From the NCBI GenBank assembly GCA_018396795.1, contig JAGTRH010000074.1, positions 1 through 6,829 of the forward strand: a DNA stretch of 6,829 bases, written 5' to 3'. Each line of letters begins with the position of its first letter. The stretch's first letter is position 1. Source of the DNA: Candidatus Bathyarchaeota archaeon (GTDB lineage Archaea; Thermoproteota; Bathyarchaeia; Bathyarchaeales; B26-1). Made by a program: the position numbers and the translations under genes. Positions 232 through 6,829 of the stretch are shown here, piece after piece. The notes under the pieces are model-generated. The model was not told where the DNA came from, did no database searches, and was given only the letters and a program-made list of their open reading frames with translations.

Positions 232-1443
232 CTAGCACACTGGTATTCTCCCGTATGCTAAATCTATACTGAACTTATCAATGTTTTCAAGTTCGTATTC
301 AGCTATTTCTTCAGCTTTTCTTCTTATGGTGTCAAAGCATGTTTCTGAATCCGCGATTAATTGCACGGCTGTTATGACTGGCTGATCTATTGGCTGCCCA
401 ATCTTGCTTAGCATCCACACGTAAACTTCCTTAAGACTGCTAACTTCGCTATAAATTTCATTAGCAATTTTATGAGTTAACAGATTGTATATTTTTCCAA
501 CGTGGCTGACCGGGTTCTTGCCAGCTGCAGCTTCGGAGCATTGTGGTCTATTGAGTGAGATTAGTCCATTAACTCTGTTGCCTCTGCCCACTTGCCCCGA
601 ATCGGCACCATCCGCGCTTGTTCCAAGCACTGTCAGATAGATGCCGCTCACACCTCTACCAGGTGCATCTAAAGTATTTAGCTCAATTTGAATTTTATCA
701 AAGGAGCCACTTCTACTTTCAATGAATTCCTTCATGTCTTCTAAGACTTCCCTTTTCTTCTCAAAGTAATATTCTTCGTCACTTATGAAACGATCTACAA
801 AAGCTATCGAAACCGTTAGATTTAAATCCCTGTGTCTTCGAAAGCCCATAACCTTTATATCTTCACCAGTTTCAGGAAACCTTCTCTTAAAGTTTTCCGA
901 ATTAAGATACTTCTCCAAGTCTAAAACAAGCCTCTCGGTCTTAGTTAAAGGTGCCCATCCAACGGCTGCAGAAGTGTCGTTTGCTTCGAGAATTTTTCCA
1001 CCCCGTTTAAATATGTCTGTGAGCGCTTGTGAGCCCGGTTGTATCTCAACTTGATAATTTACGTGATTATCCGGATCAACGAACCTAAGATTTCTCTTAA
1101 ACCAGTCTCTGGCTGTTTGGATGGCTATTTCTGCTACAGGTATTTTAATGCCATTAACCTCAAATGTCGCTCTATCGCCGAAAATCATCTTCATAGGCTT
1201 TTTAATAACGCCGCCACCAAATCTTACTTCCACTTCGCCAGCTACAAGGAGAGACTTATCAATATTATGGTGCATTATTGCTCCAGTCTTCTCGATATAT
1301 TCCTTGCAGAGGTTCACCGAAACCTCGTTCATTATTGAATCACATATAGTATCCGGGTGACCCAGCCCCTTTCTTTCAACAATTTCAATCTCTTGTTCTT
1401 CTAGGGGAACGCTTTTTAAAGGTATAACTGTTATATTTTTCAT
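232..1443 (-). CDS. mat: S-adenosylmethionine synthetase, archaeal type
   Basis: This enzyme makes S-adenosylmethionine from methionine and ATP in the cytoplasm, releasing phosphate and diphosphate. The 403 residues match the usual length of the archaeal family (about 400), which is very divergent from bacterial MetK. Recognisable blocks are [18 protein letters not shown] near residues 23-40 (nucleotide-binding His/Asp), [21 protein letters not shown] near 58-78, [15 protein letters not shown] near 287-301, and [18 protein letters not shown] near 304-321. The protein ends near an acidic ENIDKFS stretch and AYGRIPVC. The ATG at 1443 is supported by an in-frame stop just upstream and by GGATGAT (1458-1452), eight bases away. 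The HTH+CBS gene is divergent across 217 bases. No frameshift or missing motif is seen. The methionine synthase at the right edge would supply its substrate. Confidence 0.97.
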
Positions 1444-1660: not shown

Positions 1661-2191
1661 TTGATAATATCTGGCTCAATGCTTAAGAAGATGAGGCTTG
1701 AAGCTGGATTAACTCAAAGTCAGCTTGCAAAAATGGTTGGGGTTTCTCAGGCTCATTTAGCCAAAATAGAAAGTGGGAAGGTTGATCCCAGATTATCTAC
1801 TGTGAATAAAATTTTGCAGATATTAACCAGTAGGCGCGGTAAAAAATGTGGAGAAATAATGACGCGTGAAGTAATAACGACAACATTAAAGGAGAAGATA
1901 AAGAACGTTAGCGAGATAATGGTAAGATATGGGTTCTCGCAGCTACCTGTTGTTGATGGAAACAAAGTTGTTGGTATGGTAACTGAGGAGGGGATCGTAA
2001 AGAACTTAAGCCCAAACATAGCTGAGGAACCCGTTGAGAAGATTATAGAGCCACCGCTTCCTACTGTATCAGAAGACACGGATATTAGCGTAGTAAGACC
2101 ATTGCTAGAGATGCATCCGGGAGTTTTGGTAACGAGAAAGGGTGAGTTAGTTGGAATAATAACTCGCTCAGATCTGCTGAAAGTAATATAA
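1661..2191 (+). CDS. Transcriptional regulator with an XRE-type HTH and two CBS domains
   Basis: The 176-residue protein has an N-terminal XRE/Cro-type helix-turn-helix (about residues 4-58; GLTQSQLAKMVGVSQAHLAKIESGK) and a CBS pair (about 62-115 and 123-176). CBS pairs bind adenosyl ligands such as AMP, ATP or SAM, so this is probably a metabolite-responsive DNA-binding protein of a family widespread in archaea. The second CBS ends in the canonical GIITRSDLL (T168, D171). The first ends GMVTEEGIV, with Gly111 where an Asp or Asn often contacts ribose, so the two sites may not be equivalent. The TTG start is preferred over the ATG at 1679 because of the strong RBS and because ISGSMLKKMR belongs to the first helix region of related proteins. 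It is divergent from the SAM synthetase, which suggests that gene, or its own, as a target. Confidence 0.9.
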   Translation: MIISGSMLKKMRLEAGLTQSQLAKMVGVSQAHLAKIESGKVDPRLSTVNKILQILTSRRGKKCGEIMTREVITTTLKEKIKNVSEIMVRYGFSQLPVVDGNKVVGMVTEEGIVKNLSPNIAEEPVEKIIEPPLPTVSEDTDISVVRPLLEMHPGVLVTRKGELVGIITRSDLLKVI

Positions 2192-2296: not shown

Positions 2297-2764
2297 CTAT
2301 GAAAATTTAACTCTAAAGTCTTCTTTCACGACGTTTAGGACGACATTGGTAACGGTCCGCTTAACATATGGCATAGATAGAAGCTTTTTAACGAACGCGT
2401 TTAACCCAGTTCTATCCTTAAACCTGGCTATTACAGCTACATCGAAATCTCCAGTTATGTCGTAGACTGCAACAACATTATCAATTTTTGCAATCTCATT
2501 TTCCACATCTACTAGATGAGCCCCCTCTGCTTGAATAAATATGATTGCTATTGTTCCATATCCAACTCTTGCTGGATCGACAAGTACAGTGTAACCTTTT
2601 AATATCCCTTTCTCTTCAAGATTCTTAATGCGATTATAAGCTGTTCCAACAGACACGTCTAGCTTACTGGCTATTTTATTAAAGCTTATACGTGAATCCT
2701 CTTGCAATAACCTGATTATTTGAAGGTCTAGTTCATCAACATCTGTGGATGGCGATATATTCAC
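2297..2764 (-). CDS. Lrp/AsnC-family transcriptional regulator
   Basis: A full-length Lrp-type protein of 155 residues, typical for the family. Residues 10-58 form the AsnC-type winged helix-turn-helix (LDLQIIRLLQEDSRIS, then IASKLDVSVGTAYNRIKNL). After a short hinge (YTVLVDPARVGYG), residues about 70-150 form the RAM effector-binding domain, with the characteristic YDITGDFDVAVIARF stretch. Such proteins bind DNA as dimers or octamers and respond to amino acids. The GTG start at 2764 is the only usable one: an in-frame TGA lies a few codons upstream and there is no suitable start before the HTH. GGGGGTGA overlaps the GTG itself, so it cannot act as a normal RBS, and initiation may be leaderless. 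It is divergent from glnA across 108 bases holding repeated TTGAA/TTCAA half-sites, so autoregulation and control of glnA are likely but inferred. A glutamine-responsive Lrp (Sa-Lrp) is known in Sulfolobus. Confidence 0.94.
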   Translation of the reverse strand: MNISPSTDVDELDLQIIRLLQEDSRISFNKIASKLDVSVGTAYNRIKNLEEKGILKGYTVLVDPARVGYGTIAIIFIQAEGAHLVDVENEIAKIDNVVAVYDITGDFDVAVIARFKDRTGLNAFVKKLLSMPYVKRTVTNVVLNVVKEDFRVKFS

Positions 2765-2872: not shown

Positions 2873-4375
2873 TTGAATAAAAGCGGTGACTGGCAATTGC
2901 AACAAGATGATAACTTCGATGAAGCAGTTAAGAATGCTATTGAGATCTTAAGAGTGAATAGGGTTCGGTGGGTACATTCGACCTTCATTGATATAAGAGG
3001 TTTAATGCAAGACATGGTTATACCCGCGAGAGAGTTCATTGAGGGAAATGCCTTCAGAGCGGGTTTAGGTTTCGATGGCTCATCGGTTAGGGGCTTTAAA
3101 TCAATTGAGGAATCAGATATGGTTCTTATACCTGATCCGAGGACTTTAGCTATACTTCCATGGACTAGTAGTGAGAATCAGAAGAGCGCCATAATTATAG
3201 GAGATGTCTGCGAGGCGTATGGAAGCAAGGAACCCTCTGAGGTTGATCCAAGAGGTTATGTTGCGAAAAGAGCTGTTAAAGCGGCCGCTGAAATGGGTTA
3301 TAACGAGTATATCGCTCCTGAACTAGAACATTTTATATTTTCGTCAATTGACCCAACAAGGCTCGTATGGGATCTTTGGGTCAGTCCGGATGGTGGCAAA
3401 GGCGATTCTTGGGGTGCCCCTAGAGTTGTTCCGCAGTCACCAGAGATCTCCAGCGGAGGTTATGTTATTAGACCTAGAGAAGCCTATTATAGGCCCCCTC
3501 CTGAAGATACGACAATTGAGTATAGAAATGAGGTTTCAGCGGTTCTTGAGGATTACTTTGGGTTTAAAATTGAGAAGCATCATCACGAAGTTGCGACTGC
3601 CGGGCAGATTGAGATAGATTTCCAATATGGTCCACTTGTAAAGACTGCTGATAGAACAATATACTATAAGTTTGTTGCGAAGAATGTTGCTAAAAGGCAT
3701 GGTTTAATAGCTACTTTCATGCCAAAACCAGTCTATATGGATAATGCGAGTGGAATGCACGTTCATATGTCGCTGTGGAGGGGCGAAGTGAATGTTATGT
3801 ATGATGAGAGTGACGAATACGCGGAGATCAGTCAAACTGGTAGATACTTTATTGGGGGTCTGCTCGAGCACGCTAGAGCATTAACGGCAGTATGCTGTCC
3901 AACGGTAAACTCATATAAGAGGCTAGTACCAGGATTTGAGGCGCCAATTTATATTGTTTGGTCACGTAGAAATAGATCTGCTTTAGTTAGAATACCAGTT
4001 TACCAAAGAGGACCGCAGTATTCTCCCTATAAGCGCGTTGAATATCGCGGTGTGGATCCCTCATGCAACCCCTACTTATCGTTTGCATGTCTTTTAATGG
4101 CCGGACTTGATGGCATAAAAAAGAAGATCGAACCGGGTGATCCAGTTGATGAGGATATTTATAAGTTATCTCCGGAAAGAAGAAGAGCACTAGGTATTAA
4201 TGAGCTACCAACAACGTTAAAGGAAGCTATTGATGAGATGAAAAGTGATGAAGTGATCCACCGGGCCCTTGGAAGTCACATATTTGATACATTTATAGAG
4301 TATAAGATGAACGACTGGCGACAATACTGTCTCTATATAACACCATGGGAAATAACGAAATACCTAGATTATTAG
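2873..4375 (+). CDS. glnA: Glutamine synthetase, type I
   Basis: It makes glutamine from glutamate, ammonia and ATP as a cytoplasmic dodecamer. All catalytic residues are visible (Salmonella equivalents in brackets): D68 in DGSSVRGF (D50), E150 and E152 in PELEHFIF (E129, E131), E239 and E247 in HHHEVATAGQIEI (E212, E220), H296 and H298 in SGMHVHMSL (H269, H271), R350 and E356 in KRLVPGFEAP (R321, E327), RSALVRIP at 368-375, and E390 in RVEYRGVDPS (E357). At 500 residues it is longer than most archaeal GSI-alpha proteins. The excess lies mainly between F156 and Y205, where GSI-beta enzymes also carry an insertion. Y430 in DEDIYKLSPE aligns with the bacterial adenylylated Tyr, but no adenylyltransferase is near. 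The TTG start fits the promoter position and a leaderless message. It is the first gene of a cluster with two RAM proteins and a condensing enzyme. Confidence 0.97.
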   Translation: MNKSGDWQLQQDDNFDEAVKNAIEILRVNRVRWVHSTFIDIRGLMQDMVIPAREFIEGNAFRAGLGFDGSSVRGFKSIEESDMVLIPDPRTLAILPWTSSENQKSAIIIGDVCEAYGSKEPSEVDPRGYVAKRAVKAAAEMGYNEYIAPELEHFIFSSIDPTRLVWDLWVSPDGGKGDSWGAPRVVPQSPEISSGGYVIRPREAYYRPPPEDTTIEYRNEVSAVLEDYFGFKIEKHHHEVATAGQIEIDFQYGPLVKTADRTIYYKFVAKNVAKRHGLIATFMPKPVYMDNASGMHVHMSLWRGEVNVMYDESDEYAEISQTGRYFIGGLLEHARALTAVCCPTVNSYKRLVPGFEAPIYIVWSRRNRSALVRIPVYQRGPQYSPYKRVEYRGVDPSCNPYLSFACLLMAGLDGIKKKIEPGDPVDEDIYKLSPERRRALGINELPTTLKEAIDEMKSDEVIHRALGSHIFDTFIEYKMNDWRQYCLYITPWEITKYLDY

Positions 4376-4387
4376 GAGTGATTTAAA

Positions 4388-4453
4388 ATGCGTATTGATA
4401 GTGTTAAAAAGAAAGGGGGTGTAAAAAATGATAAGGGCATATATTTTTGTTGA
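4388..4453 (+). CDS. Putative 21-codon mini-ORF overlapping the start of the first RAM gene
   Basis: ATG at 4388 is preceded by GGAGTGAT (4375-4382, overlapping the glnA stop), one of the best Shine-Dalgarno matches in the window, five bases away. The frame encodes a basic peptide beginning MRIDSVKKKGGVKNDKG and stops at TGA 4451-4453. It runs past the start of the RAM gene at 4428 in a different frame, and the RBS of that gene (AAGGGGGTG, 4413-4421) lies inside it. It may be a translated upstream ORF that tunes or couples translation of the RAM gene, a relic of an earlier start, or chance. No family is recognised and the peptide is too short to judge by codon use. Confidence 0.35.
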   Translation: MRIDSVKKKGGVKNDKGIYFC

Positions 4454-4667
4454 AACTAAACCTGGAACATCTCTTGATGTTATTAAAAGAATAAAGAATA
4501 GGGTTAAAGAGGTTATACAAGCAGATGCTATATATGGGAGATTTGATGCTGTTGTAATAATTGAGGCACCTAATTTAGAGAGTATTCATGAGATATTATA
4601 CAAAGTTATTGAGAAGGATCCAGATATCGTTCATACCGAGACGTCTTTGACCTTAACTGAAATTTAA
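4428..4667 (+). CDS. Stand-alone RAM (Lrp/AsnC ligand-binding) domain protein, first of two
   Basis: The 79 residues consist of one AsnC_trans_reg/RAM domain and nothing else, with no helix-turn-helix. Strand 1 is RAYIFVETKPGTS, helix 1 spans about residues 16-29, GRFDAVVIIEAP forms the strands with the conserved G-x-aromatic-D turn, helix 2 is LESIHEILYKVIEKDPD, and the last strand contains VHTETSLTL. The ATG is fixed by a TAA in frame at 4422-4424 and by a strong RBS, AAGGGGGTG, six bases away. The domain binds amino acids in Lrp proteins. Stand-alone forms are known in archaea and bacteria but their targets are poorly defined. It lies 52 bases after glnA and 22 before a second RAM gene, so co-transcription is likely. 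An effector-sensing regulatory subunit for a neighbouring enzyme or a hetero-oligomer partner of the Lrp are both possible (inference). Confidence 0.9.
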   Translation: MIRAYIFVETKPGTSLDVIKRIKNRVKEVIQADAIYGRFDAVVIIEAPNLESIHEILYKVIEKDPDIVHTETSLTLTEI

Positions 4668-4689
4668 ATAATAATCTTGGGGTTTAAGG

Positions 4690-4986
4690 ATGACAGCAAG
4701 TAAAGATCTCAGAAGAAAAGCGCTAAGAGCATTTGTTCTTGTAAGAATGAAGCCTGGGACATCCGAAGAGATAGTTAGATCTAGGCGGATAAAAGGCGTT
4801 AAAATGGCTAATTCAGTTCTTGGAAGATATGATGCGGTTGTAGTTATAGAGGCTAGTAGTCTCGAGGAGTTGCAGAAGATAATATATGAGATGGTTGAGC
4901 AGCATCCAAACGTTGTACATACTGAGACGCTGATCTCCATCTTTCATCCACCAACCATAACTCCTGCAAACAAAAATGAAAGTTAA
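4690..4986 (+). CDS. Stand-alone RAM (Lrp/AsnC ligand-binding) domain protein, second of two
   Basis: The 98-residue protein has a short basic N-terminal extension (about 11 residues, MTASKDLRRKA), a RAM domain (about 12-84) and a proline-containing tail of about 14 residues. The domain shows RAFVLVRMKPGTS, GRYDAVVVIEAS, LEELQKIIYEMVEQHPN and VVHTETLISI. It shares the blocks KPGTS, DAVV-IEA and HTET with the gene just upstream, so the two are probably a diverged tandem duplication; this copy is two residues shorter between strand 1 and the GR(F/Y)D turn. TGGGG (4678-4682) seven bases before the ATG is a fair RBS. There is no DNA-binding domain. The 3' end abuts the condensing-enzyme gene and overlaps it if that gene starts at 4976. 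The two RAM proteins may form a hetero-oligomer (inference). Confidence 0.9.
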   Translation: MTASKDLRRKALRAFVLVRMKPGTSEEIVRSRRIKGVKMANSVLGRYDAVVVIEASSLEELQKIIYEMVEQHPNVVHTETLISIFHPPTITPANKNES

Positions 4987-5014
4987 GATTGGCGAACAGA
5001 AAATGGTGGATATT

Positions 5015-6235
5015 ATGACACTTAAGAGAATAGACCCGGAAGATATATACTTCAAACTTTCATTGAAAACTGAACCTATAATTGATGATACAACATTAAG
5101 AGACGGCATACAGATGCCTGGTTTAGCGGTTTCTCCAGAAGACGCTGCGGAAATAGCCCGCTTACTAGACGAGATAGGTGTTGAACGGATAGAGCTACAT
5201 CATTTTCAGAAGCCTGATAAAGAAGCAGTTAAGCTAATTCAGAAAATAGGCTTGGGAGCACGATTAGCTGGCTGGTGTAGAGCAGTTAAAGAGGATATAG
5301 ATGATGCAATAGACTGCGGGTTCGAGGAAGTCGGCATTTCTCATCCAGTGTCTTTCATCCATTTTAGGGCTAAGTGGCCAGATAAATCTCCAAATTATCT
5401 TTTAGACAGGGTTATTGAGGTTGTTGAATACGCCGCTAAAGATCAAGGATTGAGAGTTTTCGTTCATGGCGAGGATAGTACCAGAGCTGACTGGGATTTT
5501 GAAAAGATGTTTATTAATGCTGTTGCTGATGCTGGAGCTGAATGTTATAGAATATGCGATACAGTGGGGGTCGGGCTATCTGATCCTAATGCACCCTTAC
5601 CAAATGGGATCCCGGCGAAGATTAAAGCCATTAAGTACGAGACGAAAATAAGTGATGTAGAAATTCATGCGCATGATGACTTTGGAAATGCTGTAGAGAA
5701 TACTATGGCAGCTGTAAGGGCTGCTTCTGGACTTTGGGATAGAATCTACTTGAGCACAACTTTTCTCGGTATAGGTGAGAGGGCTGGGAACGCTGAAACA
5801 GAGAAAGTTATAATGAACTTATACATGCATTATGGCGTTAAAAAGTTTGAGGGAAAAACAGAAAAGCTAACTGCCCTAGCTGAATTAATAAGTCGAGCAA
5901 CAAGTTATGTTGTTCCACCAAATAAAGCTATCGTTGGCACCTATGCTTTTGCGCATGAATCAGGAATTCATACACATGGCGTCCTGAATGATCCATCAAC
6001 ATATGAGCCCTATCGACCTGAGCTTGTGGGAAACATACGCAGACTAACAATAGGTAAGCATTCCGGAAAAGCCATAATTAAGCATAAAATAATAGAAATT
6101 ACCGGTAGAGAACCAGATTTAGATGTACTTATGAAGGTTGTTGATGAGGTTAAGAAACTTTACGAACTTGGAAGAAAAGCCTCATTGAAGGATGAAGAAT
6201 TTAAGAGAATACTTAGGGATGTCGGTTTACTCTAA
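5015..6235 (+). CDS. HMGL-like condensing enzyme (homocitrate / isopropylmalate / citramalate / Re-citrate synthase superfamily)
   Basis: Enzymes of this family condense acetyl-CoA with a 2-oxoacid in a metal-dependent TIM barrel. Seen here are DDTTLRDGIQMPG (5084-5122; catalytic Arg, metal Asp and Gln kept), EDSTRAD (about 5471-5491), CDTVGVG, the metal-binding HAHDDFG (5666-5686), GIGERAGN (5768-5791), ESGIHTHG (about 5957-5980) and IGKHSGKA. The protein ends about 55 residues after GKHSG, so the C-terminal LeuA feedback domain is absent, as in NifV/AksA-type enzymes. DGIQ replaces the common DGEQ. GWCRAVKED, EDSTRAD and the DPNAPLPNGIPAKI insertion recall, from memory, Re-citrate synthases, while the C-terminal half looks NifV/homocitrate-like; I cannot fix the substrate. 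The ATG at 5015 has GGTGGA four bases upstream. The in-frame ATG at 4976 gives 419 residues, overlaps the RAM gene by 11 bases and has no RBS; it cannot be excluded. Confidence 0.9.
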   Translation: MTLKRIDPEDIYFKLSLKTEPIIDDTTLRDGIQMPGLAVSPEDAAEIARLLDEIGVERIELHHFQKPDKEAVKLIQKIGLGARLAGWCRAVKEDIDDAIDCGFEEVGISHPVSFIHFRAKWPDKSPNYLLDRVIEVVEYAAKDQGLRVFVHGEDSTRADWDFEKMFINAVADAGAECYRICDTVGVGLSDPNAPLPNGIPAKIKAIKYETKISDVEIHAHDDFGNAVENTMAAVRAASGLWDRIYLSTTFLGIGERAGNAETEKVIMNLYMHYGVKKFEGKTEKLTALAELISRATSYVVPPNKAIVGTYAFAHESGIHTHGVLNDPSTYEPYRPELVGNIRRLTIGKHSGKAIIKHKIIEITGREPDLDVLMKVVDEVKKLYELGRKASLKDEEFKRILRDVGLL

Positions 6236-6243
6236 AACAACTT

Positions 6244-6264
6244 AATTTGCTTAAATAGCAAATT
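6244..6264. terminator. Perfect inverted repeat between convergent genes, candidate bidirectional terminator
   Basis: AATTTGCT (6244-6251) and AGCAAATT (6257-6264) are perfect complementary arms around the 5-base loop TAAAT. The repeat begins eight bases after the condensing-enzyme stop and includes the last codons and the stop of the methionine synthase gene, so it lies where both convergent transcripts should end. The stem is AT-rich and not followed by a long T-run on either strand, so it is not a textbook intrinsic terminator. Structural pairing or chance are alternatives. Confidence 0.4.
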
Positions 6265-6829
6265 CCTTAACTTTCGTAGATGCCTCAACCATGTTCCTAA
6301 GCTTTTTGATAGCAATCTCGTAACCTTTTTCCCTGGAACCATTAACTACTAGATTTCTAAATCCACAGTCCGGTGTAAAAATCAGGCAATCGCCAAAATC
6401 CCTAAATTTTATCATTATTTTGAAAATTTCGTGAGGGCTTTCTATTTTTGGGTTTCTACTTGATAAACAGCCAACCGATAGTATTTTTCCGCTTCTCCTT
6501 AAATCTTCAGGATTATAAACCTTTATATTCTCAGGAGAATCATAAAATTCATGGCTTAAAAAATCCATACTGGTCTCCAATAAGATGTTGGCAAGTTTCG
6601 GGGAGATTCTGCCGCAAATATGCATCCCAACCATAGTATCCCCGCAACTCTCTCTTAATACATCAAGTATTTTCTTAATTTCATTCTCAGTATACTTAAA
6701 AGGTATTCTTACCCCAACAATGACCCCTAAAATAGGCTCATCAATAGAGATCATGCTGGCACTTTTTGAAGCAGTTTTGCATGATTTAGATAATATCTGA
6801 GCGATCTGCTCTATTAACCTAATATCTGA
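6251..6829 (-). CDS. metE: Cobalamin-independent methionine synthase (MetE) C-terminal catalytic domain, 5' end cut by the window
   Basis: It transfers a methyl group to homocysteine to make methionine, using a zinc site. The minus-strand frame has no stop from 6253 up to the window edge. The 25 codons before the Met at 6754 continue the family sequence (LIEQIAQILSKSCKTASKSA, then SMISIDEPILG), so that Met is internal and the N-terminal part lies beyond the window. Counting from it, the zinc ligands of E. coli MetE are all matched: H45 and C47 in GMHICG, E69 in SHEFYD, C130 in TPDCGFRNL. The visible part is 192 residues. Archaeal MetE proteins are usually about 310-340 residues, corresponding only to the C-terminal half of the bacterial enzyme. 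Such short core enzymes are thought to use a methyl-corrinoid donor rather than methyl-folate, but the missing N-terminus prevents deciding this. It converges on the condensing-enzyme gene with 15 bases between stops. Confidence 0.88.
   Translation of the reverse strand, partial: SDIRLIEQIAQILSKSCKTASKSASMISIDEPILGVIVGVRIPFKYTENEIKKILDVLRESCGDTMVGMHICGRISPKLANILLETSMDFLSHEFYDSPENIKVYNPEDLRRSGKILSVGCLSSRNPKIESPHEIFKIMIKFRDFGDCLIFTPDCGFRNLVVNGSREKGYEIAIKKLRNMVEASTKVKEFAI

Follow-up and report, generated by a model that had tools for sequence, protein, structure and literature searches.

Two stand-alone RAM proteins encoded behind glnA in uncultured archaea: a candidate two-part nitrogen sensor

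The same two small RAM proteins, RAM1 and RAM2, are encoded in the same order behind the glutamine synthetase gene glnA in several uncultured archaeal lineages. This arrangement suggests that the two proteins are a dedicated nitrogen sensor with two parts. From the sequences, and by analogy with characterised RAM proteins, we give a probability of roughly 45% to the reading that they together make up a heteromeric amino-acid sensor, which would come from the glnA transcript and adjust glutamine synthetase (GS), likely by direct contact. Co-transcription, the hetero-oligomer, the ligand and the direct contact with GS are the parts of this reading that we infer. What stand-alone RAM structures do physiologically has been described as unclear (PMC2995911). 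The order and the glnA link are kept across GS lineages and in two phyla, and they offer a defined candidate partner and ligand for such proteins. If the RAM pair does act on GS, it would be an unrecognised control of ammonia assimilation in uncultured archaea that are mostly without PII. No description of the glnA-RAM1-RAM2 arrangement was found in the open-access papers searched; subscription papers lay outside the search.

Gene layout of the window and the two RAM proteins

The window is the whole stretch of 6,829 nucleotides that was analysed, and the closest matches of its proteins place it in Bathyarchaeia. Its glnA gene (2873–4375, plus strand, TTG start) encodes a type I GS of 500 residues, which scored 418.6 bits with PF00120 and 584.6 bits with TIGR00653 (cut-off 429.15). 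It is followed on the same strand by a spacer of 52 bases (4376–4427), RAM1 (4428–4667, 79 residues), a gap of 22 bases and RAM2 (4690–4986, 98 residues). The next plus-strand gene (4976–6235) encodes an HMGL-like synthase of the homocitrate/isopropylmalate/citrate synthase superfamily; read from its first ATG, this gene shares 11 bases with the end of RAM2. The sequence-only reading had placed two HTH-less RAM frames between glnA and this synthase, all on the plus strand, and both the open reading frames and the Pfam matches agree with it. A full-length Lrp with HTH and RAM domains is encoded divergently from glnA (2297–2764, minus strand). The remaining genes are those of a methionine adenosyltransferase (232–1443, minus strand), an XRE-CBS protein (1661–2191, plus strand) and a MetE-like protein, which runs past the window end (6251–6829, minus strand).

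The lrp-glnA intergenic region (2765–2872) contains a TATA-like TTTATATA, located by eye at about 2839–2846. About 27 bases separate it from the TTG start downstream, and it would be the putative glnA promoter. The scan for sigma-70-type promoters remained at chance level (8 found against 10.2 expected), and the whole window gave zero Rfam matches at gathering scores. The glnA-RAM1 spacer was inspected as well. A Shine-Dalgarno-like purine run was seen there by eye, and a terminator-like site was looked for and not found in it. A leader ORF noticed by eye in the same 52 bases was rejected, because the spacer varies in length and the ORF was unconserved by eye in 24 relatives.

PF01037, the Lrp/AsnC ligand binding domain, was the only Pfam family matched by either RAM protein. 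The score was 41.9 bits for RAM1 (residues 6–77 of 79) and 34.6 bits for RAM2 (residues 17–83 of 98), with a cut-off of 25. The domain spans almost all of each protein, as in a stand-alone RAM protein. Neither RAM1 nor RAM2 matched an HTH family in Pfam, whereas the neighbouring Lrp matched several HTH models. RAM1 and RAM2 share 42% identity and carry the signatures GRFD ... HTET and GRYD ... HTET, respectively. In addition, RAM2 has a short N-terminal extension (KDLRRK...), which is common to its close relatives. The best PDB matches of the two proteins were 2cvi, 2e1a/2z4p and 2zbc, with chains of 75–83 residues. The 2cvi chain, which we take to be DM1, aligns with GEYD...TSTM at the positions where RAM1 and RAM2 have GR[FYH]D...HTET. 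The archaeal demi-FFRP proteins (DM1, DM2, DM3, STS042 and TvDM) are HTH-less PF01037 proteins like RAM1 and RAM2. However, RAM1 and RAM2 differ from them as two fixed paralogues in tandem that are tied to glnA. A C-terminal zinc ribbon (CPxC...CxxCG) was observed on RAM2 of the loci L149, L152, L158 and L159 (for example L159:5251–5610, minus strand) and also in P0244 and P0327. The zinc-ribbon Pfam models gave weak, sub-cut-off matches in four scanned proteins carrying this motif.

Conservation of the gene order and history of the genes

The conserved unit is glnA-RAM1-RAM2, and the synthase is optional. A RAM2-centred search was carried out over 201 genomes of the class (Bathyarchaeia), and 48 genomes matched at E ≤ 1e-10. 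Neighbourhoods were examined for all 35 RAM2 places at E ≤ 1e-30, which came from 34 genomes, and 29 of these places had glnA-RAM1-RAM2. Of the other six, one is an additional pair in G014, and five are away from glnA, with convergent or separated genes. Among the 14 genomes with weaker matches, GS was beside a RAM gene in none of the 11 examined (G063, G155 and G170 were left out).

Tandem RAM1-RAM2 loci were tabulated from several sampling routes, so that the counts over the resulting 56 loci are not frequencies. The count excludes the distant tandems L085, L086, L087, L090 and L164, which are 31–44% identical to RAM1/RAM2. GS lies no more than 100 bases upstream at 37 of the 56 loci, each of the 37 in a different genome. 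Therefore, the glnA-RAM1-RAM2 order is beyond chance. The glnA-RAM1 spacer ranges from –49 to 82 bases over these 37 loci, the negative values arising from the choice of ORF start. At the other 19 loci, GS is 698 bases away in one and was not found there in 18 (only about 620 bases upstream are visible in L157). Two further glnA-linked cases stand outside the table, namely L165, whose RAM2 appeared in the search of the phylum and was not called as an ORF by the script, and L172. Distant RAM tandems away from glnA were also observed (L085, L086, L090 and L164), in G001 and G006 alongside a glnA-linked pair.

The link extends to more distant GS lineages. The search of the phylum gave 56 of 300 genomes at E ≤ 1e-13, from which 16 genomes with single matches (E 1e-17 to 1e-13) were left out. 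At L158, L159 and L163, which belong to the same phylum, the RAM pair lies 6 bases downstream of a GS that is only 47–49% identical. Matches were also obtained in 5 of 28 genomes from the phylum to which a Hadesarchaea genome belongs, and the one of these five that was looked at (L172) carries GS (51% identity)-RAM1-RAM2. Since this is one genome of 28, transfer or misbinning may account for it. The sequence-only reading had proposed a survey of the gene order across archaeal genomes; the order recurs, and uniqueness to this genome is ruled out.

A GS tree was built from 61 rows longer than 400 residues, with shorter GS at contig ends left out, and the RAM pair is carried in two of its clades. 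Clade A has 40 rows, with the pair in 33 and missing in seven. Those seven fall in two subclades, and all of their genomes (G004, G031, G110, G164, G167, G180 and G190) have another GS match. In the second clade, which is 46–51% identical to the window GS, three rows have the pair 6 bases behind, five are without it and one has GS 698 bases away. The link between the RAM pair and GS is therefore either old and often lost or has arisen more than once, and either history speaks for function. A single GS match was found in 29 of the 32 unit-bearing genomes searched. Over the 32 loci with all three genes, the mean pairwise identity was 76.4% for GS, 67.2% for RAM1 and 74.7% for RAM2. In methanogen GS, the Arg62 position is tied to glutamine feedback (PMC10799026). 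The window GS has Ser at the column of B. subtilis GS Arg62. The aligned clade-A GS, with or without RAMs, have S, T, A or P at this column and never arginine (the truncated GS of L141 has no residue there; L165 and L169 were left out). Loss of the feedback arginine was therefore rejected as a mark of the RAM-linked GS.

RAM1 and RAM2 are old, separate paralogues in a fixed order. A quick RAM tree (107 rows, 90 columns, many forks unresolved) included 42 of the 56 tandem loci and the window. All second-position genes formed one clade (SH-aLRT 97) and the first-position genes another (SH-aLRT 84), so that RAM1 precedes RAM2 at all 42 loci and in the window. By the best BLAST match alone, RAM1 precedes RAM2 in 54 of the 56 loci; the first genes of L158 and L163 are slightly nearer RAM2 by BLAST, yet they stand inside the RAM1 clade of the tree. 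The GR[FYH]D motif was present in 56/56 first genes and 55/56 second genes, and HTET or RTET in 55/56 and 50/56, respectively. One protein, P0241 (155 residues), is a RAM1-RAM2 fusion in that order. Its first half is 58% identical to RAM1 against 51% to RAM2, and its second half is 62% identical to RAM2 against 48% to RAM1. It was the sole fusion among the 120 matches listed of 1,588, and as one record on a contig of 1,220 bases it could be an assembly error. The separate clades, the fixed order, the shared motifs and the one fused record together favour a heteromeric unit. The conserved order, the old paralogue split and the fused protein also support the idea, proposed from the sequence alone, of a two-component hetero-oligomer. 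The third RAM of the three-gene loci fell outside both clades. It is a generic RAM gene (GVYD) located behind RAM2 at loci of the second GS clade (L158:1582–1824, L159:4967–5197 and L163:4660–4902, minus), and downstream of it at these three loci is a gene with EF-Tu-like GTP-binding domains.

Candidate sensing mechanism and the divergent Lrp

RAM proteins are dimers that assemble further, and amino acids are bound between the dimers (PMC2995911). By analogy, RAM1 and RAM2 would be made from the glnA transcript and would assemble together as unlike subunits, probably in a ring of dimers, the form taken by other RAM proteins. The effector of the P. horikoshii stand-alone RAM protein DM2 is Gln. 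DM1 responds to 2-oxoglutarate too, and in vitro it assembles with FL11 into hetero-octamers (PMC2995911). Judged from the DM1/DM2 precedent, a mixed RAM1/RAM2 assembly that senses glutamine is most likely. The effector would be bound between the dimers, and 2-oxoglutarate or another amino acid would be the alternatives to glutamine. The assembly would then adjust GS to the nitrogen status. Physical contact with the enzyme is the most likely route, and the pair would fill the role held elsewhere by PII/GlnK.

A different reading starts from the divergent Lrp, which the earlier reading had not mentioned. RAM1 and RAM2 could be transcriptional co-regulators, which would form mixed oligomers with this Lrp or another one, as the DM1/FL11 hetero-octamers would allow. 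They would thus modulate how the Lrp responds to its effector and binds DNA in the lrp-glnA region, and would not touch GS. We hold this reading as a tentative one, with appreciably less than an even chance. Both the window and many relatives, RAM-less ones included, encode an Lrp divergently beside glnA. In Halobacterium, the Lrp next to glnA activates glnA (PMC2894021), and the neighbourhood is common in halophiles, including Haloferax (PMC8229911). As in the window, the full-length Lrp of Halobacterium salinarum and Haloferax mediterranei is beside glnA in the opposite orientation (PMC2894021, PMC8229911). The top NCBIfam match of the window Lrp is the haloarchaeal Lrp model NF041396, with 122.8 bits under a cut-off of 190, so that the window resembles the haloarchaeal type in gene placement and falls short of the model score. 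Moreover, the glutamine-responsive Sa-Lrp binds glnA control regions (PMC3584215). However, no Lrp was found beside GS in L158, L159 and L163, which carry the RAM pair, and Lrp-GS pairs without RAMs are common. The RAM pair and the Lrp are therefore separable. Nor is adjacency a proof that the proteins meet. The passages on the haloarchaeal Lrp-glnA pair mention no RAM-only genes behind glnA (PMC2894021, PMC8229911); here the RAM pair is added, also where an adjacent Lrp is missing. Because the pair and the Lrp are separable, and the pair and GS recur together, contact with GS is ranked slightly above a purely transcriptional role.

The sensor acting on GS would take its place among other small GS-controlling proteins, namely PII/GlnK1, sP26, GlnR and the cyanobacterial inactivating factors, and the comparison concerns function only. 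Both sP26 and the cyanobacterial inactivating factors are small proteins that control GS. In contrast to all of these, RAM1 and RAM2 have the RAM fold; they matched PF01037 and not the P-II family PF00543, and so are not PII/GlnK members. PF00543 was missing from 31 of the 32 genomes with glnA-RAM1-RAM2, and the same search detected it in 13 of 14 control genomes. However, it was also absent in 192 of the 201 class genomes (present in 9), and therefore the absence of PII is not specific to the RAM pair. The contrast with PII that the sequence-only reading drew is weak, since PII is rare throughout the class. In its strongest form, the preferred reading would make RAM1 and RAM2 an obligate hetero-oligomer with glutamine as its ligand and GS itself as its docking partner, a new class of GS regulators built from the Lrp ligand-binding fold in PII-less archaea that is reused beside purine-pathway enzymes. 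This form is less likely than not.

RAM genes away from glnA and the downstream synthase

GS cannot be the sole target, because 19 of the 56 pairs have no GS within 100 bases and some of these have purine genes, GuaA or a dehydrogenase of the isocitrate type in their vicinity. PurM, PurC and PurF genes flank RAM pairs on the opposite strand at L156, L160 and L155 (assigned by Pfam for L156 and the PurF of L160, by eye for L155). In L082 and L097, GuaA comes after glnA-RAM1-RAM2, and in L084 it comes after a pair that has no glnA. An isocitrate-type dehydrogenase follows the RAM pair in L149 (Pfam) and in L147 and L150 (by eye), and RAM2-like genes adjoin PurC/PurP-type genes in L112 and L114. 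The common theme of the neighbours without glnA appears to be the use of glutamine and ammonia, several of the 18 neighbourhoods being unannotated. The pair could then be a free-standing nitrogen/purine sensor for glutamine-using pathways (GS, PurF, GuaA and PurM/PurC), with glnA merely its commonest neighbour. The purine genes and GuaA listed above would fit such a sensor. On the other hand, GS is the commonest neighbour at the strong RAM2 places of the class (29/35) and recurs with distant GS lineages, which makes this reading improbable. Two side observations concern other small RAM genes. A RAM1-like gene without RAM2 (L117:5658–5897) adjoins two ammonium transporter genes (L117:2402–5205), and the ammonium transporter neighbourhood is the usual place of GlnK in other organisms. 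Another small RAM protein is encoded beside kdpB-like E1-E2 ATPase genes in L116, L117 and L118, with a kdpC-like gene recognised by eye.

Regulation of the downstream synthase by the RAM pair is very improbable: the 11-base overlap in the window and the known fusions of RAM domains to homocitrate synthase speak for it. Against it, the RAM2-centred survey found the synthase behind RAM2 at just 14 of its 29 places with glnA-RAM1-RAM2, and 8 of the 32 unit genomes have no orthologue of the synthase. The synthase was accordingly rejected as a conserved partner of the unit. The sequence-only reading had proposed a regulatory pair for one or both enzymes; its link to glnA is upheld by the conserved order, and its link to the synthase is not. 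The synthase-centred scan, with one genome per species, covered the best 80 of 538 loci. The full order glnA-RAM1-RAM2-synthase was present in 12 of these 80, and RAM1/RAM2 were not found beside the synthase in the other 68 at the cut-off used, some of them on short contigs. Over the 37 GS-linked loci, the synthase follows RAM2 in 18, a count from mixed sampling that gives no frequency, as 12 of these came through the synthase-centred scan.

The synthase has HMGL-like/HCS_D2 domains in Pfam, and its best solved relative is the homocitrate synthase 6ktq. None of the 17 curated homocitrate/isopropylmalate/citramalate synthase models listed reached its cut-off, the best being a subfamily model with 327.7 bits against 517. 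Among the 32 unit genomes, 24 have only the synthase (orthologues at 64% identity or more), seven have only the canonical citrate synthase family PF00285, one has neither and none has both. In the 201 genomes of the class, a synthase orthologue (E ≤ 1e-100) was found in 71 and PF00285 in 46, with both in 13 (16.2 expected if independent). The mutual exclusion in the unit genomes, set against co-occurrence in 13 of 201, is suggestive of a Re-type citrate synthase that replaces PF00285. A possible role of the synthase is to supply citrate for 2-oxoglutarate; such a role would account for its position behind glnA. In G013 and G188, the synthase and the canonical citrate synthase are encoded about 5 kb apart.
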